DNA of 42,329 nt from Methanosuratincolales archaeon (lineage in GTDB: Archaea; Thermoproteota; Methanomethylicia; Methanomethylicales; Methanomethylicaceae). The notes beneath the pieces are model-generated. The model was given only the letters and a program-made list of their open reading frames with translations, was not told the DNA's origin and ran no database searches. The DNA lies in NCBI GenBank assembly GCA_014361445.1, contig JACIVQ010000009.1, forward strand, positions 1-42,329, read 5' to 3'. Below, piece after piece: positions 1,554-30,440 of this stretch; position 1 is the first letter of the stretch; each line of letters starts with the position of its first letter. The position numbers were made by a program, and so were the translations under genes.

Positions 1554-4500
1554 TCACTTATTTGCACATATTCTGCACAACTTCTTCTTGAAGAGTCCGA
1601 AACGCCTCAACTCAACCATGCAGTTGGGGCATACCTCGCGCCTACACTCCGAACATGGACTTATGTGTGCTGCACAAAGGGTGGCGCCGCATAGGGAGCA
1701 CGCCAATTTATCAGATTTACAGAGAATTTTTCCACAGACAGCGCACTTGGATTGTGGCTCCATTATGCAAAAGACTTTTGCACATGCGGAGCATTGCCAA
1801 GAATGCGACTTGCACACATTGCCCCCACACTCAGAGCATCTCACTATACACTCTTCGCAGAACACCTTCCCGCATACCTTACACTTGACCTGCTCTAATA
1901 CGCAAAGCTCCTTTCCACAGCCTGAGCACCTTTTCATATGGGCATTATAATGATCGGCGCAGTATAAGTTCTTGCAGACCTTACATTCTTTGATGTGATC
2001 CTTGCAATATGTTTTGTCAACACATTCGTTGCACCTGTATACGCAGTCAGCACAGAGCTTACTTCCACAGGAGCTGCAGATGTGCGGCTTTTCATCAATG
2101 CAGTAAAACTTTCCACAGTTCGGGCACGACCAGACATGATCCGAACATACCCCCCTCTCGCAGAGGGCGCAAACTTTCAGATGGGGCGGGCAGTACATCT
2201 CTCCGCATTTGAAGCAGATCAAAGGTCCATCAAGGGAGTCTATAGTCGTGCCACACTCGGCACAGCTGCCAAATACCCCTCTGCCATTTACAGCGTTCCA
2301 CTCAAACCTGAAGTCTTTGCTAATCCCTTCAAAGTAAAACCGGTATAGCGCCTCGATCGTCGGGACCCAGACCACTTGCATTACCTCAACCTCCACTTCA
2401 TCGTGTTTGGGTTGAAATACTATTGTATGCAGAGGCGCCTCCATCAGGGATTCGACCTCGGCTTGCACTTTAGAGATCTCCTCACGCATCTGTCTCTCCA
2501 GGAGGTTGCCTTCCTTCCTGAGGTTGTTGATCTTCGAGCTCAACTCCATAATCCTCTTCTCGAGTCTAGTCAACCTCACTTCTCTGGTCTGGATCTGTTC
2601 AGATAGCTTAAGCAATGACCTTCCTTCTCTCTCGGCTTTAATTCGCTCCTTGTTAAGAGAACGGAGCTCGTCCTTTATACCCACGACTAGTTTCTCAAGA
2701 CTCTCATACTCTTCCTTGGCAGAGTTTATGGACGACTCAACTTCCCTTATCTTAGACGAATAAGAGGACTTTATCTCCGCTGCCTTGTTGTTCTTGATTT
2801 CATCAATTTTTGTCTTCAGTCTCTTTTTGTACTCCTCGAGCGACTCTCCTGGTCTTGAATACTCGCCCAATTCTTTGTGGTAATAGATGTTCTGCGTGAG
2901 CTTCGATATAGCATAGGTCTTTAGCAGACCCTTAAGTCCTTCAATGCTGGAACTTTCAAAGAGCGCCGAGGTTGGCAATTCGTGCCGCCCCTCCCTCGAA
3001 GGGGATGGCGAAGCCCCTACTTGGACGACCTCATTTGCCGTGAGACGATATGCGGATTCGTGCCTCCAGTCTACAACGGATATGGAGGAATCTGCTGGAA
3101 CGAGTCGCCGCAAACGCTCCTTAAATTCGAGGGAGGGTATCCTCCTAATGGAGTTAACTGTAACCTCTGCAAACAGAGCGGGCATGTAGCGGAGGTCGGA
3201 TTTTATGACTTCAGCATGATCTAGTGTTTTGTTCTCTTTGAGCGCCTCCAAAAAGCTCTTTTCGTCTACCCTTACTGGCATGTATGTGGCGGGGAGGGAG
3301 GGAGGCAAAGAGGGGGGTAATCCTGGGGCACCCCGCATCTTGATAAGACGATCCTTGAGCGCAGCCATTCTCTTTTTCATCCTCTCCCTTTCTTCCGGGG
3401 AGACAAAATCCAAGGGGTTGAATCCAGGAGCGCCATGCCTTGTCTCTCTGCATCTTACCTTCACGTGGAGGGGGACCCTCTCCACCACATCTCCCGTGAT
3501 TATGGCATCGCCAGGCTCAAGCCAGTTTATCTCGTATGCCCATTCGTTGCTCAACCCCCCGCTCTCCAAAGCTATTCTAACATCGTTTGGATCCGTCAGC
3601 TGGTGAATTACCCATGTAGCGGAGAGGCTCCTCACAGTCATATCCAGCAACTGGGGGCGTTGAGTCAGGACGATCAGATTTGCGCCAAACTTTCTGCCCT
3701 CTTGGGCAAACCTTTTGACCATGTCAAGTGTTTCCTTGACCAAAGGATCCTTCTGCCTGGTTCTGCCAGCAAATAGGTGTGCCTCGTCCAAAACAAGATA
3801 GAATGGAGGGATCTGCATCACCATTATAGCCTCAAGTAACTTGTTTAGCAGTCTTCCCACTATGGAATATTGGTCATTCGCAGGTAGACCCCTTAGGTTT
3901 ACAATCGTGCATTGCATCTGGGAGACGAGGTCTTCGGGCTTTGCGTTCTCGATAGCTGAAATGTCGATGTCGGCCCCTGGGTTGAATACCATATCAGCAA
4001 ATTCTATTATCTGCTCGGAATAGGACTTCGGCTCAACCTTAAATTCTTGCGAAGGGGACTCGGATGGTACCTTTAAGCTGGAATACTCTCCGTGGGCATC
4101 GATGATGACAAGGGGGACTCCCTTCTTGATGAGCTCTTCTGCCATGACTCCCATGGTGTAGGACTTGCCAGCGCCAGGCTTACCGACTATAAACACCCGG
4201 GTGAGCTTTTTTACAGGTAGCCAGACCATGATGTCCCTTGCCTTCAACTTTCCAATGTACAATCCTTCAACATCCGAGGTCACAAGCCCTAGGCCCTTCC
4301 TGATGGTCTCGTCAGATGCCATGTAAACTTCTGACTCTGGTGGGAAAGGGGTCTTGGGCGAGGGACCCACAACAACGCAGCTACCTATCAGTTTATTTCC
4401 ACTTCTCTTCAATTCTTTTATCATGAGCAAAAAAGACCTACCCTCATGAAATACCTCTACGTAGTCATTCCTTCCAAACTTCTCGTTTGTTATAACCATT

Positions 4501-4562
4501 GAGAATGAGTCTGTGCTCGTGATGCCCTCGATCTTACCCACCACAACTGGACTAGAGATCAA
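1554..4562 (-). CDS. HerA/DUF87-family ATPase with central coiled coil and C-terminal tandem Cys-rich (zinc-binding) array
   Basis: Walker A VGKPGAGKSYTMGVMAEEL, Walker B FYLVLDEAHLF, HAS-barrel-like N-terminus, long K/E-rich coiled coil, then about 18 CxxC motifs in the last ~250 aa. Confidence 0.85.
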   Translation of the reverse strand: MISSPVVVGKIEGITSTDSFSMVITNEKFGRNDYVEVFHEGRSFLLMIKELKRSGNKLIGSCVVVGPSPKTPFPPESEVYMASDETIRKGLGLVTSDVEGLYIGKLKARDIMVWLPVKKLTRVFIVGKPGAGKSYTMGVMAEELIKKGVPLVIIDAHGEYSSLKVPSESPSQEFKVEPKSYSEQIIEFADMVFNPGADIDISAIENAKPEDLVSQMQCTIVNLRGLPANDQYSIVGRLLNKLLEAIMVMQIPPFYLVLDEAHLFAGRTRQKDPLVKETLDMVKRFAQEGRKFGANLIVLTQRPQLLDMTVRSLSATWVIHQLTDPNDVRIALESGGLSNEWAYEINWLEPGDAIITGDVVERVPLHVKVRCRETRHGAPGFNPLDFVSPEERERMKKRMAALKDRLIKMRGAPGLPPSLPPSLPATYMPVRVDEKSFLEALKENKTLDHAEVIKSDLRYMPALFAEVTVNSIRRIPSLEFKERLRRLVPADSSISVVDWRHESAYRLTANEVVQVGASPSPSREGRHELPTSALFESSSIEGLKGLLKTYAISKLTQNIYYHKELGEYSRPGESLEEYKKRLKTKIDEIKNNKAAEIKSSYSSKIREVESSINSAKEEYESLEKLVVGIKDELRSLNKERIKAEREGRSLLKLSEQIQTREVRLTRLEKRIMELSSKINNLRKEGNLLERQMREEISKVQAEVESLMEAPLHTIVFQPKHDEVEVEVMQVVWVPTIEALYRFYFEGISKDFRFEWNAVNGRGVFGSCAECGTTIDSLDGPLICFKCGEMYCPPHLKVCALCERGVCSDHVWSCPNCGKFYCIDEKPHICSSCGSKLCADCVYRCNECVDKTYCKDHIKECKVCKNLYCADHYNAHMKRCSGCGKELCVLEQVKCKVCGKVFCEECIVRCSECGGNVCKSHSWQCSACAKVFCIMEPQSKCAVCGKILCKSDKLACSLCGATLCAAHISPCSECRREVCPNCMVELRRFGLFKKKLCRICANK

Positions 4563-19840: not shown

Positions 19841-20998
19841 ATGCAAAAAGTCAAGCTGACATACAAGTTCAGGCTCTACCCTAAGCCAGAGCACGAAGAA
19901 AAGCTGCTGGAGACCTTAGAGCTGTGCAGGCAGACCTACAACTATTTCTTGGCTCAATGGAACGGAAAGGAGAATATACCGGGCAGGCTCGAGCTCCAAT
20001 CCCAGCTACCAATGCTGAAGAAGGAGAAGCCCGAACTGAAAAATGTTCACTCTAAGACGCTTCAAATGGTCCTCTATCAATTATACTCAAACTTGAGGAG
20101 TTTATCGCAACTGAAGAAGAAAGGTAAAAAAGTTGGAAGGCTCCGCTTCAAGGGGAAAGGGTGGTACAAAACCTTCATTTACAATCAGAGCGGGTTCAAA
20201 CTTATAAAGACCGGTAAACGGCTCGACGTTCTACACTTATCAAAAATAGGTGAGATTCCTATAAGGGCTCACAGATCCATTGAAGGATCAATAAAGCAGA
20301 TCATAGTAAAGAGGCACAACTCTGGGAAATGGTTCGCCTACATATGTGTAGAGAAAGAGGTTGAGGTAAAAAGGGAAGAGCCTATGAGAGTTGTAGGCAT
20401 AGACGTCGGCTTAAAACACTTTTTAACGGACACTGACAGGAGGCAGATAGAGAACCCGAGGTTCTACGAAAGAACTTTAGAGAGGATAAGGGTTCTACAG
20501 CGTTGTCTTTCAAGGAGGCGCAGAGGCTCAAAGAACTACGAGAAAACAAGGATAAAGCTCGCAAAAGCCTACGAGAGGCTAGTGAGCCAGAGGGACGACT
20601 TCCTCCATAAGCTCTCAAGGTTCTACGTGAAGAATTACGACGTAATTTGCGTGGAGAATTTGCAGATCCAAAATATGGTTAAAAACCACAACTTAGCCCA
20701 GAAAATACTAGACGCCTCTTGGGGTAAGTTCATCCGCCTACTCCACGAGAAGGCTGAGAGAGCCGCTCATGTAGTGGTGGATGTACCCCCAAAAGGCACC
20801 TCAGAAGGGCTTAAATATGAAGATCCACTGAGAGATTTCATATCAGCAAATAGGATAAAGGTGAGGGGATTGGGTAGCCCTGATACGCCTGCCGAGACGG
20901 AACCTCTACGGGAGCTGATAACAGTCCCCGCAAGCTCCATCATTGAAGCAGGAAGCCCACAGCCTTCAGGTGTGGGTAGCTCACATCTTGGCACGTAA
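19841..20998 (+). CDS. tnpB: TnpB-like RNA-guided nuclease-family protein lacking a recognisable zinc ribbon
   Basis: N-terminal YKFRLYPKPEHEEKLLETLELCRQTYN; RuvC D in VVGIDVGLKHFLTD; E in ICVENLQIQNM; RDFISANRI; no CxxC pair between PPKGTS and RDFISANRI. Confidence 0.88.
   Translation: MQKVKLTYKFRLYPKPEHEEKLLETLELCRQTYNYFLAQWNGKENIPGRLELQSQLPMLKKEKPELKNVHSKTLQMVLYQLYSNLRSLSQLKKKGKKVGRLRFKGKGWYKTFIYNQSGFKLIKTGKRLDVLHLSKIGEIPIRAHRSIEGSIKQIIVKRHNSGKWFAYICVEKEVEVKREEPMRVVGIDVGLKHFLTDTDRRQIENPRFYERTLERIRVLQRCLSRRRRGSKNYEKTRIKLAKAYERLVSQRDDFLHKLSRFYVKNYDVICVENLQIQNMVKNHNLAQKILDASWGKFIRLLHEKAERAAHVVVDVPPKGTSEGLKYEDPLRDFISANRIKVRGLGSPDTPAETEPLRELITVPASSIIEAGSPQPSGVGSSHLGT
20954..20980 (+). repeat. 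Right-end hairpin overlapping the tnpB 3' coding end
   Basis: CCCACA-gccttcagg-TGTGGG stem-loop (20956-20976) inside codons for EAGSPQPSGVG. Confidence 0.75.
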
Positions 20999-21017: not shown

Positions 21018-21293
21018 TTGATTATGGAGCTCTCTGCAGTTTTTAATGTTGTCTACTTCTTCTTTGACCTGATCAAATCTTTCATAAGCTTCATAGTGGA
21101 GAACACCATATTGAGAGGGAGACCAGACCTTGCAAATTCCTTCTCTTCCGCGATAACATTGTTGATAACTATTACAGCAATATACATCCTCTTGGTATTT
21201 GTTACGGCAGCCAAGAAGGCAATAGGGATCATCCTCCTAATAGGATGGGCTCTCCTTATCATTAGCCTTATTCTCGCTGGATTCGGGATTTAG
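21018..21293 (+). CDS. Small membrane protein
   Basis: 91 aa, two or three hydrophobic segments, no recognised family. Confidence 0.55.
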   Translation: MIMELSAVFNVVYFFFDLIKSFISFIVENTILRGRPDLANSFSSAITLLITITAIYILLVFVTAAKKAIGIILLIGWALLIISLILAGFGI

Positions 21294-21423: not shown

Positions 21424-24402
21424 TCATGGTAATATGATCTTGCCGGTGAGACATATCCCCGAGGCGTCCAAGCACAGCAGATCAACATAACCGGTGTGGC
21501 TTGGAGTAGAGAACCTCGCGCGCAGCCCTCCTGGAGTACCAGAGATCACCACAGGCGCCCCGTCTATCACTAAGGATTTTGGCAGGGCCTCCATAGGTTT
21601 TCCATCCTCGTAAATAGTGTATTTAAAGACCATCTCATGCACAATCCCTGTGCTCGAAGGTGTCTTTTCCATTGAAATCAAGGCGAACTCCACCTTATAT
21701 GAAATCAGTTCGGTGCTCACCTCATAATACAGCCTGTCGATACGAGGGGAGTAGCTTCTGTTTACAAACAAGTAGTATAGGTTTCCTGGTCGGAAAGTGT
21801 TAGGAAAAGAAAAAGTCGGTGGGTATACAGATACCGTCGAAGAAGTGGGCCAGCTTGTGGCATTTATTGGAATCACAACTCGCCCTTCTGAATCTGCCCA
21901 ATACTCTGCCCCTAAGAACTTGATCCTCCAACCTGGCTTTAAACCTGTGACGTTAATTCCTGAGTACCAGTCGGGTATTCTGTAAAATTCTAGGCGCAGG
22001 TAATCTATCCTGCCCCACTGAGGGTTTGAGTAGAGTGCGTATCCCGCCCTACTGCGGGCGAATGTGTGAAAGGCGATAACCACCATGTCTACCTGGGTGA
22101 AAGCGTCCTTGTAAAGGTTAGATATGTTCACGTTCAGGGAGGGTGCCGTTGACCTTGGAGACTGTGCTATTGGGGTCCAGCTTCCGCCTCTGACCAGATA
22201 CACGATGATCTCGCCCCACCCCTCCAGCAGCTTATCTGCGGTGGCATAATAGGTGAATGACCCGTCTGCCACCGTGGAGACTGTCATGTTTCGGACCGCT
22301 GCGTTTACATCATACCTTAAGTAGTACCATGCCTCCATAGTAGGGAGTTCGCTGCCCGGAGGATAATAGTAGGATAGCCTCTGCTCGTCGAACCTGACAT
22401 ATCCTAAGGAGGAAGAGAGGCTCGGGGGCTGCCCGCCGCTGACTAGGTTGTAAGAGAATGTCCACCCCGCGGTCGTCGAGCACTCGCTCCCAAGCGTCTC
22501 CATCTGAGCATTAATTCCTGTATTTTGCTTTATTAGTGTGCCATCAGACCCATAGACGAGTTTGTCATTCCAATCTAAGCCGCCCGCATAATTTGCAACA
22601 CTCCTCAAGTATGGTCTGCTCACCACCTCCACAGTACCATTGAACGGCTGCTGGATCTCCGACTTTTGTATCTGTATATCATTGCCTGTGCTTACTACAG
22701 TCTTTTTCAAAACACCCCCATCATATACCTTGACGATATCATTGATAGGGACCCCTTTGATGGTGAAGCAACTCTGTTGCTGATTCTGGGTCAATTCGAA
22801 ATAGTTTCCTTCATCATAGTAAGTCAGGGTTGTATTTGGGTTGAATGTTCCTCTCTTCACATAAATGTAGTCGACGAGACCAACTAGTGTACCATTAAAG
22901 GGCTTTGGAGGTCCGGGTATGTCTGTCCTGATATACTCCCACTGCGCTGTCTTGCCATTGTAGCTGTAGTACCTCGTATTGGTCAGCAATATGTGCTGGA
23001 TGGGTGCAGAAGACCCCGCGGTGGTCCAGGTACCGATGTATGCCCCGCTGGACTTTATTGTCCAAGTGGACCCCGTCCTCTGGATCTGGATTACGAGCGA
23101 ACCAGTTCCAGGGAGGGTGTTTGCACCTGTCGACCAAGACGACCCTTGGCTGACGCCGCAGGACCACTGTGGGTTACTGCCCGCCCAAGCGTCACAAACT
23201 CCGGCATACGCCACCACAGACCCAGTGGAGTCCAGAAGTGCCAGATAGATCTCCGCCAGATCTGATGATTGACCAATATAAGACAGCTGTGCCTCTACTC
23301 TCAGATCTCCTACTGGCGATGGGATCCTTAAGCGAGCACCGCTCCAAGAGCCCCAAGTGCTCGGCTTGGCAATAGTCATCAGTCTTCCATCCTTCTCATC
23401 AATGGAGTTCAAGTTTACAGCCTCCCACGGATCAACTATGCCGTCATCAAACTCGTCAGATATTGGCGGTCTGTTTTGAAAGGAGAATGACATTCCTTGA
23501 AGTGGGGAATCTGCCCTCGAGATCTGCCTCCCAGAGGTATCAATTAGAGACCAGTTCCCGCTTGGAAGACCTGAGAATGTGATATCTTCATAATTAGCAT
23601 TTATCATGACCACCTTGTCAATATTTATCCAATACTCGTAGTCTGAGTAAGGCTGGATCGGGTTGTACTCCCAGATGTAAAACTCTATCTCGATCTTGGC
23701 TGGCGACGTGTAGAATGTCCCGCTAATCATTACAGAGGATCCATTATCGTATGAGAAATATGCCCCTGAGGCGTTCTGCCACAGCTTGATGTTAAGGCTA
23801 CTCAGGTAGAGGTTGTCGGCTGTCTTGTTTGCCCCATAAATCCATGCAACGATTCGCCTTATCGGGTTGTTGTAGACGATCTCTGTGGCAAAGATCTTAG
23901 CACCCTTTCCATCATATAAGGATAGGCTGACGTGGAGCTCCGGCGAACCGGCCACCCCGCTGCTCGAGGCTCTGAAAGTGGATATTGGCACATACAGCTC
24001 AAAATATGGGCCAATAGTACCTACCTTTTTCCACATTTTGAAATTATAAACTGATCCGCCTGTGCCGTGGAACCAGTTGTGCCACTGCAAGTACCCTGCA
24101 TCCGTGACCCCACACCAAAGGTAGCCTGACCATGAGGGACACGACCCAGTAAACTCCCATCCGTTATGATCCGCCCATTGATCTGCAGCGGAATACGGTG
24201 GCGAGTCAAACTCTTCGCAAAAAGACGCATAATTGGTGTTGCAAAGGGTCACCTTCAGACCGGAGGGGCCGTCTCCGAGAGAAAGCACGGCATCTTCACC
24301 ACTGAAGTAAGTCACATAGCCCGAAACTAAGACATGGGGAGGATTAGCAATGAGGAAAACTGTAACGGCTGTCAGCATAAAAAGAGATTTGACTCTAACC
24401 AT
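21424..24402 (-). CDS. Large secreted beta-rich protein, putative pilus-associated adhesin
   Basis: Start placed at ATG 24402, overlapping the stop of the upstream gene; signal peptide MVRVKSLFMLTAVTVFLIANPPHVLVSG; ~990 aa rich in G/S/T/Y/W; lectin/LamG-like stretches (FDDGIVDPWEAVN...ARLRIPSPVGDLRVEAQL). Confidence 0.7.
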   Translation of the reverse strand: MVRVKSLFMLTAVTVFLIANPPHVLVSGYVTYFSGEDAVLSLGDGPSGLKVTLCNTNYASFCEEFDSPPYSAADQWADHNGWEFTGSCPSWSGYLWCGVTDAGYLQWHNWFHGTGGSVYNFKMWKKVGTIGPYFELYVPISTFRASSSGVAGSPELHVSLSLYDGKGAKIFATEIVYNNPIRRIVAWIYGANKTADNLYLSSLNIKLWQNASGAYFSYDNGSSVMISGTFYTSPAKIEIEFYIWEYNPIQPYSDYEYWINIDKVVMINANYEDITFSGLPSGNWSLIDTSGRQISRADSPLQGMSFSFQNRPPISDEFDDGIVDPWEAVNLNSIDEKDGRLMTIAKPSTWGSWSGARLRIPSPVGDLRVEAQLSYIGQSSDLAEIYLALLDSTGSVVAYAGVCDAWAGSNPQWSCGVSQGSSWSTGANTLPGTGSLVIQIQRTGSTWTIKSSGAYIGTWTTAGSSAPIQHILLTNTRYYSYNGKTAQWEYIRTDIPGPPKPFNGTLVGLVDYIYVKRGTFNPNTTLTYYDEGNYFELTQNQQQSCFTIKGVPINDIVKVYDGGVLKKTVVSTGNDIQIQKSEIQQPFNGTVEVVSRPYLRSVANYAGGLDWNDKLVYGSDGTLIKQNTGINAQMETLGSECSTTAGWTFSYNLVSGGQPPSLSSSLGYVRFDEQRLSYYYPPGSELPTMEAWYYLRYDVNAAVRNMTVSTVADGSFTYYATADKLLEGWGEIIVYLVRGGSWTPIAQSPRSTAPSLNVNISNLYKDAFTQVDMVVIAFHTFARSRAGYALYSNPQWGRIDYLRLEFYRIPDWYSGINVTGLKPGWRIKFLGAEYWADSEGRVVIPINATSWPTSSTVSVYPPTFSFPNTFRPGNLYYLFVNRSYSPRIDRLYYEVSTELISYKVEFALISMEKTPSSTGIVHEMVFKYTIYEDGKPMEALPKSLVIDGAPVVISGTPGGLRARFSTPSHTGYVDLLCLDASGICLTGKIILP

Positions 24403-25228
24403 AAACGAACACATCTCCACCTTGCACAGTCCCAAAGTACCAGGCGTTGGGGGCGACAATGCTGACCTTACCATTAATCGTGATAGGTGAGACTAAGACT
24501 GTGGTGACACTAGAAGGGAGATCTCTTAGGGCCTCTCCGATGAGAGCCCCGCCCGAATCAAAGATCCTCACCAAACCGAGCTGAGGTACGCCGTAAACCA
24601 AAATATAGGGGAAACTCGGGGGCGGACTCCAGGGCGTGGTCGTGATCGAAGCCCCCTGTAGGGTGTACTTATAACTAATGGACACTGTGCCAGAGTAGCT
24701 CCATGCCTGAGAGTCCTTGGTGTAGACAATTATGTAATACTCGCCCGCCTCTCGGTTGAAGTTTAGCGTTCCCGTTGTGCTCTTTGAGACCACGTTGAGG
24801 TCCTGATCTGCTAGTACAACCTCGCTCTCGGGGGGAAGATTTAGCACTATGATGGCTCCTCCTGTGCCAGAGGATGACTTATAAATCACACCATAGGTGA
24901 AATCACCGAGACTCCGCGGCTCCAGCCTACCGACCCCCGTACCATCAAATGAAGGGATCACAATCCCTGCCTGTGAGAGGTCTGACAACGCCTTAAGCGA
25001 GGCATTAATGTAAACCTCGGCGGCGAGGTCAGGATCTGTACTCCTCGAGGCTGCGGCACCGGCGCCCCTCAATATGGAGCGGTAGACCTCCTCACTCAAG
25101 TCTTGGTTTGGGAATGGCTTGACGTGAACCGGTGTTATGAAGTACATTATCATGAAGAAGTACGAGGTCAATATTAGAAATAAGCTCAGGGCGGTAAATG
25201 TGAGTACAAAGCCCCCACGAGACCTCAA
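24395..25228 (-). CDS. Pilus-operon membrane-anchored protein (minor-pilin-like)
   Basis: MRSRGGFVLTFTALSLFLILTSYFFMIMYF N-terminal TM then beta-rich ectodomain; overlaps both neighbours. Confidence 0.65.
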   Translation of the reverse strand: MRSRGGFVLTFTALSLFLILTSYFFMIMYFITPVHVKPFPNQDLSEEVYRSILRGAGAAASRSTDPDLAAEVYINASLKALSDLSQAGIVIPSFDGTGVGRLEPRSLGDFTYGVIYKSSSGTGGAIIVLNLPPESEVVLADQDLNVVSKSTTGTLNFNREAGEYYIIVYTKDSQAWSYSGTVSISYKYTLQGASITTTPWSPPPSFPYILVYGVPQLGLVRIFDSGGALIGEALRDLPSSVTTVLVSPITINGKVSIVAPNAWYFGTVQGGDVFVYG

Positions 25229-25707
25229 AGCCTCTCAACCTCTATGGAGATCTTCTTTATCTTACCAAACATCCCAACCGAAAAGATCACCCTAGAAAGT
25301 TCTGGGTGGATGGACGTGGGGGTGAAGCAGATTTTGGAACTGTCGTAGATTATCTGTCCACCATAGACCGACTTCACTATGGAGTGGGCATCGTGTATAT
25401 CTGGGATTCCGGTCCCTTCAAAAATCACCGAATCTGAAGTGAAAGTTATATCACCCGAGGGTACGTTGACAATAATTGTCAGAGAGGTCCCGGGATCAGA
25501 GGCAAACAAGTACTCCAAGCAGTCATGGATTGTATTTATAACGCGCATTTTGAGAACAGAATCATCATATCTTACCTTGGAGATCAAGACAAACGAATTA
25601 CTCATGAATATACCAGTTATGGAAAACAATGTCACAGTCAACAAGATCAGCGTGAGGGGCGCGGCTTGGGCCATCCGCCCTTTTGACGCCATCCCACAAC
25701 CTCTCAC
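25225..25707 (-). CDS. Minor-pilin-like protein
   Basis: Single N-terminal hydrophobic helix (APLTLILLTVTLFSITGIF) and small ectodomain; in operon. Confidence 0.6.
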   Translation of the reverse strand: MRGCGMASKGRMAQAAPLTLILLTVTLFSITGIFMSNSFVLISKVRYDDSVLKMRVINTIHDCLEYLFASDPGTSLTIIVNVPSGDITFTSDSVIFEGTGIPDIHDAHSIVKSVYGGQIIYDSSKICFTPTSIHPELSRVIFSVGMFGKIKKISIEVERL

Positions 25708-25714
25708 TTTGCCC

Positions 25715-26116
25715 TCACCTCGTCAAGGTCAAAATAACGATCCTGGGATCAAATTCGCCCTGATAACCGCTCAAGAATATGAGTGCCGAAGAGGTTCTCC
25801 CTGACTTGAACTGATGGTCTACCGACCACAGCGGCTTCCAATCACACGTGTAGACACTTATCCTGAAGCCCAGCCCAGGAGGTAGTACCTGCGCCACTAC
25901 CCTCTCGATCCTGTCGTACTCCTGAGAGAATACCATTGATGAGAGCAACCCTTTTTTCTCCAGACAGAGCAGAAGGTTTGAGGCAAGCTCCCCTAATTCC
26001 TGGGAGCTCCCCGCCACAGCTAACGAACTAACATGCCCCAGTATCACAATTACCGCGGTCATGAGTATTACTATGGCAAATACGCAATCGTAGATCCTTG
26101 CAACCCCATCGTCCAT
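25715..26116 (-). CDS. Minor-pilin-like protein
   Basis: MDDGVARIYDCVFAIVILMTAVIVILGHVSS N-terminal helix; directly abuts the preceding gene. Confidence 0.6.
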   Translation of the reverse strand: MDDGVARIYDCVFAIVILMTAVIVILGHVSSLAVAGSSQELGELASNLLLCLEKKGLLSSMVFSQEYDRIERVVAQVLPPGLGFRISVYTCDWKPLWSVDHQFKSGRTSSALIFLSGYQGEFDPRIVILTLTR

Positions 26117-26542
26117 CTAACTGATCACCACTCTCAGCAGAACAAGGTTGCCATCATCCAAGAGCACTAACCTGTCGTATTCGCAGGTTCCGCCCCCTAG
26201 CAGTGGAGTCCCAGAAGTCCTCATGTCAAGTAAACTCAGCTCACCTGAATCGTTCAGGTACAAGTATGATGCATTGATCCAGATCTTTGTGCCTTGAGGG
26301 GCTCCGTATAACTCTGGACTTGATGAGGGCGTCCAATTTGCCCATTTCTGGTAAGAGTATGAATTTTCCATCACTATGGAGCTGGAGACCATGGATGCTA
26401 TGTTCGTTTTGATTTCTTCGATCTCTCTACTCACTATAGACGAGTATGCTCCGAGCAGTATATACTGCGAGAAGGCAAAGGCGCCTAAAAACAGCATAGT
26501 TGCGATGATGACCTCAACGCTCTGATCCATTACTGCCCCCAA
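26117..26542 (-). CDS. Minor-pilin-like protein
   Basis: MDQSVEVIIATMLFLGAFAFSQYILLGAY N-terminal helix; overlaps the tadC-like gene. Confidence 0.6.
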   Translation of the reverse strand: MGAVMDQSVEVIIATMLFLGAFAFSQYILLGAYSSIVSREIEEIKTNIASMVSSSIVMENSYSYQKWANWTPSSSPELYGAPQGTKIWINASYLYLNDSGELSLLDMRTSGTPLLGGGTCEYDRLVLLDDGNLVLLRVVIS

Positions 26543-28311
26543 AGAGTGAGCGCTCTTATAAAGCCTAGATCTTTAAACAGGAGTATGCCGACCATGGAAA
26601 GAATTGTGCACACGGTGCTGCTCGTCAGTCCATCCACAATAGAACCTCCGTTGCTTACTTTTCCCCCGAGCAAGCCTAGCAAGTAAGAGTTATACACCAC
26701 TGCCGTGTACGCTACCAATATCAACAAATTGAGCTGCTCACCCGATATGAAGGACATCCCCAGCGGCAGGTTAATTGTGGTGACGGCCTCTGCCACCCTT
26801 GTAAATAGCCTGGCAACGATCTCCACTACTATGGAGATGCTGAAGGCTAGCAGTAGTGTATTGACATAGCTCATTACAACGAAGAATCGAGTCTGAGACT
26901 CCATCGACTTGCGCCCCAAGAACATGTTGGCAACGAGCTCGGACAGGAAGTCAAGGCTCTTTGGGTCAGCACCCATTGTCTCCGCCCTATCTAGTAACTC
27001 AAGCGAGACCTTTGCTATCCAGGGCCCCTCAACACATGGGAGTGCCCCGGCTATGGGGCAGCCAACCTTCAGATAGCTTGCCAGCCTGTGAAGGAGCCTG
27101 TCGAAGGACGCGTTGAAAGATCTCCCTTCGCAAAGTTTGATCATGGCTATCCTGGGGGAAACTCCCTTCTTCACCTCTTCAGCAATGGACCGCGTAAAGG
27201 ACGGAAGGGTGGCGATGATCTCTTTTGTCCTTTTCCTCACTGGTGCATAGTGCCTTATTGCTGGCAGAGTGAATGTTACCAGCGAAATCCCGAACGCATA
27301 ATATACAGGCAAAGCTGGACCAAAAACCTTCACCAAAAGTAGGAGAAAGGGTAGTACTGGCAGAAGGAATTTGACCAGAGCTCCATGGTCGACCTCCTCA
27401 GTTAGCTCCTTTGGGGTGTAAGTGTCTATCATCAGACTTAAAAGGACTGCAACTATTGTGGGGAAGACAAAGCAAGCAAAGAATAGTATTGGCATGCCGA
27501 GAATGCCGCTAAACAGCACACCAACAGTTATTGTGCCCATGGGGAGCATTATGAATGCTATGATCTCTGCGGATGTCATCAGGGAGAATTTGTCTGAAAA
27601 GGTCTTCAACCTTCCCTGAAGGAGCGAAAAGAGTTTGAGGAGCTCATACCGCATCACAGACAGGACCTCGCCTCCCTCCCTCTGAGTTGAGATCGAAGTT
27701 ATGTACAGGTCCTTGACCGAGTCCAGGGGGTGATGCTTCCCTTCGAATAATATCGCCTCAAAAGGGTTTAGGGCGTATAACCTTCGAACTTTTTCTATCC
27801 GATACCACTCCTTTTTAAACTGGGGCAAGTTTTTGAGGTCCTTCAGGTGTTCAAAAGCAGAGGTCGCAGGGATTCCAGATGCCGATGCCATTGTAAGATA
27901 TGTTGCAAAGAAGGGGAGTTCCCTCTCGCATGCCTTCTTTCTGTTATAGGTCGCCAATACAGGTCTGAGGAGGAGATCAAGAACCATTGTGGCAGGCAGT
28001 ATGATGACGCCAGCCAAGAGATATATGAACGATCCCGAGGGCAAAAGTGGTCGAAGTAAAAAGAGTACCAAAATCAAGGTTGAGGATATAACCAGCTCCT
28101 TGAGGACCTTCATGGAGTAGTCTATCGGGCTAGTCGACATCCCGCTACTATAAAGTCTAATTGAGATCCTCTCCGCCAGAGCAAGAGTAATCTTGTCGTG
28201 GATGCGGGTATAGAGCTTAGGCTTTGGTGTGGCGTCTGACGAACCACTCGCCCCAGATCCGAGGCACGTATTCTGGTTTTCGGTGGAGGTCCTGTGCTCA
28301 CCGGGCGACAT
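26530..28311 (-). CDS. Type IV pilus/archaellum assembly membrane platform protein (TadC/ArlJ-like), duplicated T2SF domain
   Basis: Two T2SF-like segments (ELPFFATYLTMASASGIPATSAFEHL and TLPSFTRSIAEEVKKGVSPRIAMIKL) separated by TM helices. Confidence 0.85.
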   Translation of the reverse strand: MSPGEHRTSTENQNTCLGSGASGSSDATPKPKLYTRIHDKITLALAERISIRLYSSGMSTSPIDYSMKVLKELVISSTLILVLFLLRPLLPSGSFIYLLAGVIILPATMVLDLLLRPVLATYNRKKACERELPFFATYLTMASASGIPATSAFEHLKDLKNLPQFKKEWYRIEKVRRLYALNPFEAILFEGKHHPLDSVKDLYITSISTQREGGEVLSVMRYELLKLFSLLQGRLKTFSDKFSLMTSAEIIAFIMLPMGTITVGVLFSGILGMPILFFACFVFPTIVAVLLSLMIDTYTPKELTEEVDHGALVKFLLPVLPFLLLLVKVFGPALPVYYAFGISLVTFTLPAIRHYAPVRKRTKEIIATLPSFTRSIAEEVKKGVSPRIAMIKLCEGRSFNASFDRLLHRLASYLKVGCPIAGALPCVEGPWIAKVSLELLDRAETMGADPKSLDFLSELVANMFLGRKSMESQTRFFVVMSYVNTLLLAFSISIVVEIVARLFTRVAEAVTTINLPLGMSFISGEQLNLLILVAYTAVVYNSYLLGLLGGKVSNGGSIVDGLTSSTVCTILSMVGILLFKDLGFIRALTLWGQ

Positions 28312-28378
28312 CCTAATCCCCTTTTAAGCAATTTTCATCCACCGCGAATTCTCATGACACTGACGGTCTCCGTAATCT

Positions 28379-30013
28379 TTACCCCTCCTTAACTTCCACA
28401 TCAGAAGAAACCTTGACTTTTCCCTCGGGGGTGATAACTAGGGAGTCCAAGTCCAACTTGTGATGACAGGATTGGAAGGCCCAGACAACCTTTGTAACTG
28501 TCGCATATTCTCTGAACTCTGGTCTAACCCTTGCAATTTTCTTAAGTTCGGCGAGAAACCTCACCCTCTCCCGATACATCTCTATTAGCCGACTCTTGGA
28601 AATTCCGGTCTCTGAAATTATCCTCTCTGCCCCTTTAGACTCTGAGATTAGTCCCTCACTGAAGGAGAAGGCGTCCTTCTCCGGATCGTAGGCGAATAGC
28701 GGCTTGAGCTCAAAGTCCTCCCTAAGGTCATAGAAATTCATCGCCCTCCTCCTCTGTACAATCTGATCGTCACTGCGGACCGTAGTCTTGCCCACAAAGA
28801 CTATCCCTGCCAGAGATTTCAGCGCCCCTCTCTCGACCAGTATAGGAGGGGAGACCAACCTCTCCAGAGCTGCGTTTGGGCTCTCTGCATGGAGTGACGT
28901 CACTCCTCCGTGCCCAGTCATGATGGCTTGAGCCCATATCCTTCCTTCCTCTCCCCTAACCTCGCCTACTATTATGTAATCCGCAGACATCCTGAGCGCC
29001 TCCTTGATGAGGGCAAACATTCCTATCTCGCCTCTCTCCTCAAGCGTCGCCGACTCCCTCACAACAAGGGATATCCTGTTTGGGTGAACTAGGCGCAGTT
29101 CTGGCGTGTCCTCAATTGTCACGATCACAGATCTTTCAGGTATCATGTTACAAATCGCATTGATCAGGGAGGTCTTCCCGGTCCCCATGGCTCCGCAGAC
29201 AAGGAAAGCCTTCTTGTATTCCAACAAGATCATGAGCCAGGCTGCCATCTCCGGCGGAATAGTGTTCAGCAACATCAATGAGGTTATAGACCATGGCTTC
29301 TCCGGGAACTTTCTTATGATGAAATTGGACCCTGAGGGGGATACCTCCTTTTTGTAGGAGGCAGAGAGGCGGCTACCATCTGGCAATCGGATGCTAACGA
29401 GAGGTCTGTACAAAGATATTGACTTCCCACTCGCGTAAACGAGTTTCTCGATATATCGATCGAGCTCCTCTGGGTAGAAGACTATGTTTGTGGGCATAGT
29501 CCCGTAGTCGGAATGTATGCATGAGACTGGGTTTTTTGACGATGCGACCACAACGTCCTCTACTCTAGCATCTTGGATTAGAGGATCCAGCAGCCCGTAA
29601 CCCAGGATCTCCCTCTTCAGAAAGTAAATGTGACGTCTATCCCGGAGACCTGCCTTTACCAGATATTCATCAAACTTAGTCTCATCAGCAACTACAGATG
29701 AGGGCATGAGGAATAGGAGTTTGGAGGCAAGCTCCCTCAACCTGGACTGCTCTTCTGGTGTCAGGGGCGGGTCGTGAACCAAATACTCATAATCTCTAGT
29801 TATGTAGACTGTGCTCATCCCTACGCTGTAACTCTCTATCACCTTGACACCGCTGAGGTTTACCTGGGAGGTTCTTATGCTCAGCATTGGGAGGTCAAAC
29901 TTCGTCTTCTTGCCCTTCTCCAGCTCCTCGTAAGCCTTCTTCTCCAACTTCTCAACAGGGGCTGACAACAACTCCTCTATCGCTTCAGGTTTGGCTCCCT
30001 TCCTCCACCTCAT
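28379..30013 (-). CDS. Type II/IV secretion ATPase (pilus assembly, GspE/ArlI-like)
   Basis: Walker A LVCGAMGTGKTSLINAI, Asp box IVTIEDTPELRL, SADYIIVGEVRGEEG, TGHGGVTSLHAESPNAALERL. Confidence 0.92.
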   Translation of the reverse strand: MRWRKGAKPEAIEELLSAPVEKLEKKAYEELEKGKKTKFDLPMLSIRTSQVNLSGVKVIESYSVGMSTVYITRDYEYLVHDPPLTPEEQSRLRELASKLLFLMPSSVVADETKFDEYLVKAGLRDRRHIYFLKREILGYGLLDPLIQDARVEDVVVASSKNPVSCIHSDYGTMPTNIVFYPEELDRYIEKLVYASGKSISLYRPLVSIRLPDGSRLSASYKKEVSPSGSNFIIRKFPEKPWSITSLMLLNTIPPEMAAWLMILLEYKKAFLVCGAMGTGKTSLINAICNMIPERSVIVTIEDTPELRLVHPNRISLVVRESATLEERGEIGMFALIKEALRMSADYIIVGEVRGEEGRIWAQAIMTGHGGVTSLHAESPNAALERLVSPPILVERGALKSLAGIVFVGKTTVRSDDQIVQRRRAMNFYDLREDFELKPLFAYDPEKDAFSFSEGLISESKGAERIISETGISKSRLIEMYRERVRFLAELKKIARVRPEFREYATVTKVVWAFQSCHHKLDLDSLVITPEGKVKVSSDVEVKEG

Positions 30014-30035
30014 CTCATCCCTCCAAAAAAGGGGG

Positions 30036-30440
30036 TTATTGGGAGAGAGCGCTGAACTGCAGGGTGCCTTGATCGGTATTGAGGGTCCCCCTTAAAGTCT
30101 GCCCTGGGGAGAAGGGCTGGGAGAACTTTACCTGGAGAGAGACACTCTCCCCAGCCTTTATTGTACTTGGGGTGAAGTTACTGCTAGTCGTAGAGTTGAG
30201 GTTGCAGGAGACCAGGTTTGCGTCCGCCGTTCCTATATTCTTAACAGTCATGTATAGCGTGTCGTTCTGAACAACAGGTGTGCCTATTATTATAAGCGCT
30301 CCCTGCATCGATGCGGCGGATCCTGTAGAAGCCATCCACGTTATCGCCATCCCAGTGACTGCGAGGGCAGCGACCGTTACCAGTATTGTTATAATTGGTG
30401 TGGAGATCTCGCCCCTTCTATCGATATTCTTTCCTCTCAT
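30036..30440 (-). CDS. Major pilin-like protein with class III signal peptide
   Basis: MRGKNIDRRG|EISTPIITILVTVAALAVTGMAITW then CARDB-like beta domain (MTVKNIGTADANLVSCNLNS). Confidence 0.75.
   Translation of the reverse strand: MRGKNIDRRGEISTPIITILVTVAALAVTGMAITWMASTGSAASMQGALIIIGTPVVQNDTLYMTVKNIGTADANLVSCNLNSTTSSNFTPSTIKAGESVSLQVKFSQPFSPGQTLRGTLNTDQGTLQFSALSQ

Follow-up and report, generated by a model that had tools for sequence, protein, structure and literature searches.

The window analyzed here, the whole 42,329-nucleotide stretch of contig JACIVQ010000009.1 of an uncultured Methanosuratincolales archaeon from the methanogen-lineage family Methanomethyliaceae, contains eight co-directional ORFs running from 30440 to 21424 on the minus strand, to which all gene and domain coordinates below refer. 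They encode, in order, a probable pilin (Pil), an assembly ATPase, a membrane platform protein, four minor-pilin-like proteins (m1-m4) and a giant secreted protein termed ADH; the ORFs, Pfam domains and spacing agree with the original prediction in gene order and coordinates. The pil and ATPase genes are 22 bp apart and the ATPase and platform genes 67 bp apart; the platform gene then overlaps m1 by 13 bp, m1 directly abuts m2 (0 bp), m2 and m3 are separated by 7 bp, and m3 overlaps m4 by 4 bp and m4 the ADH gene by 8 bp. Judged from these gene coordinates the spacing is operonic, and the earlier view that the last six genes overlap or nearly touch holds, with values of -13 to 7 bp from platform to ADH, after the start of ADH is moved. 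This start is most likely 24402, not 24474, because the orthologues align at that methionine. On sequence evidence the genes of the operon can be taken as real, because all eight are under purifying selection when compared with congeners (dN/dS 0.05-0.26) and, as had been proposed as a check, most genomes of the family carry their orthologues. A TATA-like promoter box, TTTATATAAC, was recognized in the sequence just upstream of pil (minus strand, approximately 30470-30461), and a similar box of TTTATATAA/TTTTTATAA type with roughly equal spacing occurs in 10 of 15 aligned loci, the window counted (genera g1, g5, g2 and g3), being less clear at the g6/g7 loci of the same line-up. Rfam detected no RNA in the operon region.

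The first gene (30036..30440) encodes the probable major pilin, a 134-aa protein with a class III signal peptide, RRG/EISTPIITILVTVAALA. This motif occurs in all 16 Pil orthologues as against 25 of 530 control ORFs, and among PDB entries the Pil profile finds the pilus chains 8q30 and 6w8u with weak scores (E = 0.0023 and 0.032, respectively); the curated UpsA model matches the protein weakly as well (0.0043). The second gene (28379..30013) encodes the 544-aa pilus assembly ATPase with a T2SSE domain (PF00437, 2.6e-30 in Pfam), the nearest solved chains of which are 2oap (6.7e-67) and FlaI 4ii7 (7.3e-55). Long branches meet in the ATPase tree, and we therefore did not use it for deep placement. 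The third (26530..28311) specifies a 593-aa membrane platform with two T2SSF domains (PF00482, two stretches), the best curated model for which is UpsF (2.7e-37; 128.7 bits, below the cut-off of 400). A search for EppA/PibD elsewhere in the genome had been suggested, and a prepilin peptidase was recovered on another contig of the window assembly (G000:C56) as one ORF matching both PF06847 (2.4e-10) and PF01478 (7.3e-11). Four components that characterize an archaeal type IV pilus of the TFF superfamily, namely a T2SSE ATPase, a T2SSF/TadC platform, a class III pilin and a genomic peptidase, are present, and the operon most likely encodes such a pilus, the filament being predicted from the genes. 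The original prediction also held that this is not a motility operon, and indeed the archaellum lies elsewhere in the genome: three archaellins and another secretion ATPase are found together at G000:C45, which accounts for all three PF01917 matches in the assembly and leaves none in the operon.

The four small proteins that follow share a minor-pilin-like organization, and class III sites are weak in all of the window copies. In m1 (26117..26542; 141 aa) the helix comes almost at the N-terminus, after MDQxxE; this N-terminus is conserved in 13 orthologues, and m1-like genes are also found at the G022 and G224 loci. A widespread archaeal T4P component is represented by m2 (25715..26116; 133 aa), which a profile search recovers in 55 of 300 genomes of the phylum and which adjoins a T4P ATPase or platform in nearly all the non-family loci opened. 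The N-terminal helix region of m3 (25225..25707; 160 aa) aligns to the pilin profile (hhalign P = 8.1e-5), its class III site being clear in some orthologues and degenerate in the window copy. The largest, m4 (24395..25228; 277 aa), is modeled as an N-terminal helix (residues 2-30) with a beta head; a KG/F[AT]-type class III site is seen in most of its orthologues (strict motif in 9 of 13) and is absent from the window copy. Residues 207-277 of m4 (24398..24610) are homologous to residues 544-618 of ADH (22549..22773; hhalign E = 1.3e-6, probability 91%), and this common domain suggests that the two proteins co-assemble.

ADH (21424..24402) is a 992-residue adhesin candidate, predicted to be an all-beta protein secreted by the Sec route without a C-terminal membrane anchor. 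It is found in 18 genomes, all of them Methanomethyliaceae, and is absent from approximately 376 other genomes sampled in the phylum. Searches found no significant relative of ADH in Pfam, NCBIfam or the PDB sequences and, in Pfam and NCBIfam, no enzyme domain; among 14 members examined, DUF2341 (PF10102) was recovered in none at E <= 1 and PilY1-type domains gave no Pfam match, nor any PDB sequence match. The alignment of these 14 rows is too divergent for a pattern scan. An N-terminal domain (about residues 37-300; 23503..24294) is present in all orthologues, as seen from the coverage table. Domain 2 (about residues 336-496; 22915..23397) is modeled as a galectin-like beta sandwich, residues 354-495 superposing on the galectin 4agr with Z 10.9 and rmsd 3.4 over 127 aligned positions; confidence in this stretch of the model is low. 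Domain 4 (about residues 632-808; 21979..22509) resembles the jelly roll of carbohydrate-binding modules, with matches to the CBM-bearing mannanase 1wky (Z 11.0), the hyaluronan-binding module 4d0q (Z 10.8) and the CBM27 1pmh (Z 10.5). The overall pLDDT of the model is low (56), good prediction being confined to residues 632-808 or thereabouts, where it is mostly 65-93, and part of the C-terminus. The prediction of a large lectin-like exported protein thus gains support from two putative carbohydrate-binding-type folds, galectin-like and CBM-like, although at the low confidence of this model, and glycan binding may be tentatively predicted; a beta-sandwich fold shared with lectins and CBMs is in itself no demonstration of sugar binding. 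Phage fibre proteins and reelin, the top Foldseek matches of ADH, were discarded as relatives with an rmsd of 39-72 over the whole chain. A structural comparison had been proposed for the minor proteins too; for m4 it gave only generic Ig-like sandwiches (best Z 6.1, not above background), and no specific fold is assigned to this protein.

Comparison across the genera indicates that ADH keeps its end domains while inner lectin-like modules are lost or replaced. The galectin-type domain 2 is common to g1, g5 and g2 (hhalign E = 4.6e-25); its place is taken in g3, g6 and g7 by an unrelated domain, which is internally consistent (6.4e-17) and gives no hhalign match to the galectin type. The CBM-like domain 4 is absent from g2 (coverage about 0.1).

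The system extends beyond the window operon, which is about two-thirds of it. Four further conserved genes on another contig of the assembly (G000:C30), here called module C, include one for a secreted protein of approximately 1290 aa with PKD/InlB repeats and two or three for small single-helix proteins. In g1, g3 and g5 the pil-ATPase-platform genes precede m1..ADH; in g6/g7 the order is C, then m1..ADH, then pil-ATPase-platform; and in g2 C and m1..ADH are together, separate from pil-ATPase-platform. Every one of the 18 ADH-bearing genomes has C230 and the orthologue of the ATPase, and the orthologous ATPase, ADH, m2 and C230 are jointly absent from G006 (98% complete). A comparison of C1291 with ADH gave no match. 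The idea of a compact eight-gene machine has to be given up, since this third module with its second giant secreted protein belongs to the system. Nor is the machine of an undescribed kind, as had been thought possible: the ATPase, the platform and m2 occur widely in T4P loci of Thermoproteota, and Makarova, Koonin and Albers (2016, PMC4858521) had earlier put forward adhesins for such loci in archaea. The novelty lies in the adhesin family with its swapped domains, in the modular make-up of the gene set and, in sister genera, in the junction of pilus genes with VirB3/VirB4-like genes; in the literature searched no pilus is described for Methanomethylicota.

The closest counterparts are the clade 1 archaeal T4P loci with predicted adhesins bearing DUF2341, the domain of the T4P adhesins that those authors proposed (PMC4858521). 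These loci likewise join an ATPase and a TadC-type platform to pilins, several minor pilins and large proteins that are candidate secreted adhesins. In the window system, by contrast, ADH has neither DUF2341 nor any other significant Pfam match, the prepilin peptidase lies outside the locus, and a single platform gene takes the place of two TadC components. G022, from the sister family, has between its m2- and m3-like genes a 1467-aa protein that starts with a KG-type N-terminus and carries DUF2341 in two stretches (6.2e-14); the notion that m4 and ADH arose by fission of such a protein has only positional support, because m4 shows no significant alignment to it. The large proteins of the G024, G029, G224 and G299 T4P loci show no detectable relation to ADH. 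The prediction had allowed that this might prove to be a standard Aap, Ups or Bas pilus. By the curated models, which covered Ups and Bas, neither of these two identities stood, as scores are far below the cut-offs; toward Aap, the weak match of the Pil profile to chain 8q30 is the one pointer obtained. Ups pili (UpsA/E/F) of Sulfolobales share the pilin-ATPase-platform core, whereas the present system has in addition four minor-pilin-like genes and a pair of giant secreted proteins; the Sulfolobus bindosome (BasA-F) also combines a secretion ATPase and platform with a secreted partner, but BasE reaches 180.1 bits against a cut-off of 1000 and BasF 75.4 against 1300. The bacterial priming or tip complex of PilY1 and minor pilins is alike in logic, with several minor pilins and a large unanchored Sec-secreted protein encoded together, but ADH lacks a PilY1-type sequence match and is modeled as beta sandwiches, which makes this a working analogy only.

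We favor, with a probability of about 0.62, an archaeal type IV pilus that serves attachment and not motility, with the lectin-like modules of ADH binding glycans. The ATPase and the two-domain platform would build the filament from the class III pilin after trimming by the genome-encoded PibD-type peptidase, and m1-m4 together with the two or three single-helix proteins of module C would join the assembly as minor pilins. Minor pilins would hold ADH and the PKD/InlB-repeat protein, both Sec-secreted and unanchored, on the pilus, probably at the tip or the base. For ADH the strongest candidate for this role is m4, because its head and ADH have a common domain. Glycans of other cells or of a surface may then be the ligands of the lectin-like ADH modules, and module exchange would alter what ADH binds.

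It is conceivable, if unlikely, that the pilus instead holds cells together for conjugation-like DNA transfer, as Ups pili serve the Ced DNA-exchange system in Sulfolobales (PMC9905601, PMC11868833). In each of the four g6/g7 genomes examined, the pilus genes lead on, in unchanged orientation, to genes for a multi-TM protein, a protein resembling PrgI/VirB3 and a VirB4-like ATPase, an arrangement analogous to Ups with Ced; these genomes also encode an SSB and a VirD4/TraD-like ATPase, which in three of them lies close by. This gene run hints at a mating pilus there, and the platform's preference for the UpsF model points the same way, albeit with a score far under the cut-off. In contrast to both g6/g7 and the Ups precedent, neither the window genome nor the other g1-g5 genomes yielded a VirB4-like or VirD4-like homologue at E <= 1e-10; the VirB4 search used a g6 query against a window assembly that is 90% complete, and Ced/Ted ATPases are strongly divergent. 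The broader proposal that the Methanomethyliaceae pilus as such is the contact half of a DNA-exchange machine, lectin-tipped, with a combined pilus-conjugation operon in g6/g7 and module swapping setting mating specificity, we consider similarly doubtful. The g6/g7 junction of T4P and VirB3/VirB4-like genes provides a direct connection, at the level of the genome, of pili with DNA exchange in a group other than Sulfolobales and Thermoproteales.

Large beta or PKD-repeat proteins are common as parts of surface layers, and ADH and the PKD protein might be S-layer-type proteins merely residing in a pilus transcription unit. Certain T4P-linked giant proteins have been called S-layer-like by Makarova et al. 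(PMC4858521). We regard this as improbable, as neither protein has a membrane anchor, the m1..ADH block remains intact and co-occurs with pilus genes in three arrangements, and the ATPase orthologue, ADH, m2 and C230 are missing together from G006. A pseudopilus, with the pilins as a piston that expels ADH and the 1290-aa protein to act outside the cell as enzymes or binding proteins, would suit the T2SS-like ATPase and platform and the Sec-type leaders and missing C-terminal anchors of both giants, but is just as improbable, given that Pfam and NCBIfam reveal no enzyme domain, that m4 and ADH have a common domain, and that Sec substrates can leave a cell lacking an outer membrane with no help from a T2SS piston.

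On the attachment pilus reading, this group of methanogen lineage would gain a concrete and testable attachment machine. In the ADH family the scaffold stays constant and putative ligand-binding modules are traded, which may amount to a natural experiment on the specificity of archaeal adhesion.

The eight-gene set originally predicted on the minus strand was recovered in full, all ORFs as first given except for that of the 992-aa secreted adhesin candidate (ADH), whose start was moved from 24474 after alignment of orthologues. The set encodes a class III-signal pilin (30036-30440), an ATPase (28379-30013), a platform protein (26530-28311), four single-helix minor-pilin-like proteins, m1 to m4 (26117-26542, 25715-26116, 25225-25707 and 24395-25228), and ADH (21424-24402). 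Neighboring ORFs overlap or lie no more than 67 bp apart throughout, a TATA-like box is situated immediately upstream of the pilin gene, and all eight genes are under purifying selection relative to congeners (dN/dS 0.05-0.26). A Pfam scan of the eight products clearly recognized only the ATPase and platform protein. In most orthologues m1 has no leader other than the Met and begins with MDQxxE; once processed, such a protein would carry Glu as its fifth residue, the arrangement found in bacterial type IV pilins. As the window assembly (1.46 Mb in 87 contigs, 89.9% complete) carries its archaellin genes elsewhere, clustered with a secretion ATPase of their own on contig C45, the operon is not the motility organelle, in agreement with the original prediction. 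Likewise, a prepilin peptidase on contig C56 means that the operon need not encode one.

ADH possesses a Sec-type leader and no C-terminal anchor, and a class III site is absent in 14 of 14 members. Its structural model is all-beta, with a low mean pLDDT of 56 and a well-predicted region at residues about 632-808, which matches carbohydrate-binding modules (CBMs; 1wky, Z 11.0; 4d0q, Z 10.8; 1pmh, Z 10.5; rmsd 3.1-3.2). Residues 354-495 resemble galectins in fold (4agr, Z 10.9, rmsd 3.4). The model thus supports the proposed lectin-like nature of the exported protein at the fold level and no further. Both ends of ADH are retained in all orthologues; the galectin-like slot is occupied by an unrelated domain in genera g3, g6 and g7 of the family, and g2 lacks the CBM domain. 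The head domain of m4 is homologous to ADH residues 544-618, and this shared domain is the best clue that the two may co-assemble.

Several other genes were noted near these loci. A 91-aa ORF with about three TM segments (21018-21293, plus strand), convergent with ADH and without a family match, is kept at the same site in g1, the window's genus (89-91%), G007 (56%) and G015 (51%). A TnpB/IS605 OrfB-type gene (19841-20998, plus strand; PF01385, 4.1e-25) adjoins the operon end. Judged by eye, a 1002-aa ORF further away (1554-4562, minus strand) appears to be a HerA-type ATPase extended by a long, zinc-finger-like tail rich in cysteines, and an ATPase weakly matching PF00437 (16416-17945, plus strand) looks like a PIN-domain ATPase of the PINA type rather than a pilus ATPase. 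In G014 a secreted-type PF09826 beta-propeller gene (L088:5985-7787, minus strand; 2.8e-158) is divergent from the pilin gene; similar-sized ORFs occupy this site in other g2, g3 and g5 loci, and the window has no gene of this type at that position.

Comparison of loci across the family shows that the pilus system extends beyond the window and comprises three modules: A (pilin-ATPase-platform), B (m1-m2-m3-m4-ADH) and C, which encodes a ~276-aa protein, a ~1290-aa protein with two PKD and several InlB-B-repeat stretches, and single-helix proteins of ~230 aa (C230) and ~127 aa (C127). The order is A-B in g1, g5 and g3, with C elsewhere (contig C30 in the window genome); C-B joined in g2, with A separate; and C-B-A as one run in g6/g7, complete in G008, G009 and G012 and interrupted by a contig end in G013, where the pilin gene is also tandemly duplicated (L067:2302-2718 and 2720-3151). 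Module A adjoins nrdD/nrdG in g2, likewise in the window. All 18 ADH-bearing genomes also have the orthologous ATPase and C230; in G006 (98% complete) these, ADH and m2 are jointly missing. G016 has module A alone, and in G005, where a contig end falls within module B, ADH was not found.

In the four genomes of g6/g7, the genes that come after the platform gene, in the same orientation, encode in turn a protein of 554-580 aa, one with 8-11 TM segments, a PrgI/VirB3-like protein and a VirB4-like ATPase (L099/L140 in G008, L098/L139 in G012, L066/L138 in G009, L067/L141 in G013), a junction seen only in these genera. An SSB gene is close by in all four, as is a VirD4/TraD-like ATPase gene in three, lying on another contig in G009. 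The arrangement is similar to Sulfolobales Ups plus Ced (PMC9905601, PMC11868833), an analogy that suggests a mating role for the g6/g7 pilus. This role cannot be extended to the window organism; in g1-g5, the window genome included, no homologue of either ATPase was found at E <= 1e-10.

ADH occurs in 18 family genomes, its named carriers being Ca. Methanomethyliaceae/Methanomethylicota (Verstraetearchaeota) MAGs, and is absent from all ~376 other phylum genomes sampled; C230 is nearly family-specific. m2 is widespread (55/300 phylum genomes) and adjoins type IV pilus ATPase and platform genes in nearly all non-family loci examined, lying on a different contig from them in G022 of the sister family. 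There, a 1467-aa protein encoded between m2- and m3-like genes (L170:7995-12398) has a KG-type N-terminus and two stretches of DUF2341, a domain class proposed for archaeal type IV pilus adhesins by Makarova et al. (PMC4858521), and is possibly a giant modular minor pilin. In another family, ~1040-aa secreted proteins are encoded immediately downstream of the platform gene of a type IV pilus locus (G024 L171:7559-10678; G029 L172:6713-9841); profile comparison found them unrelated to ADH.

Thus, the original observation is confirmed and its interpretation borne out in part. The best reading of the operon is a non-motility archaeal type IV pilus displaying a lectin-like, domain-swapping secreted adhesin, with filament, tip position and ligand putative. 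The machine core is already known; new are the adhesin family, the set of genes and the rearrangement of its modules. In G224 and G299, from another family, genes in the C127, pilin, ATPase, platform, m1, m2 and m3 positions form a single cluster; therefore, the core represents an old archaeal type IV pilus plan, to which this family has added giant secreted proteins, ADH foremost.
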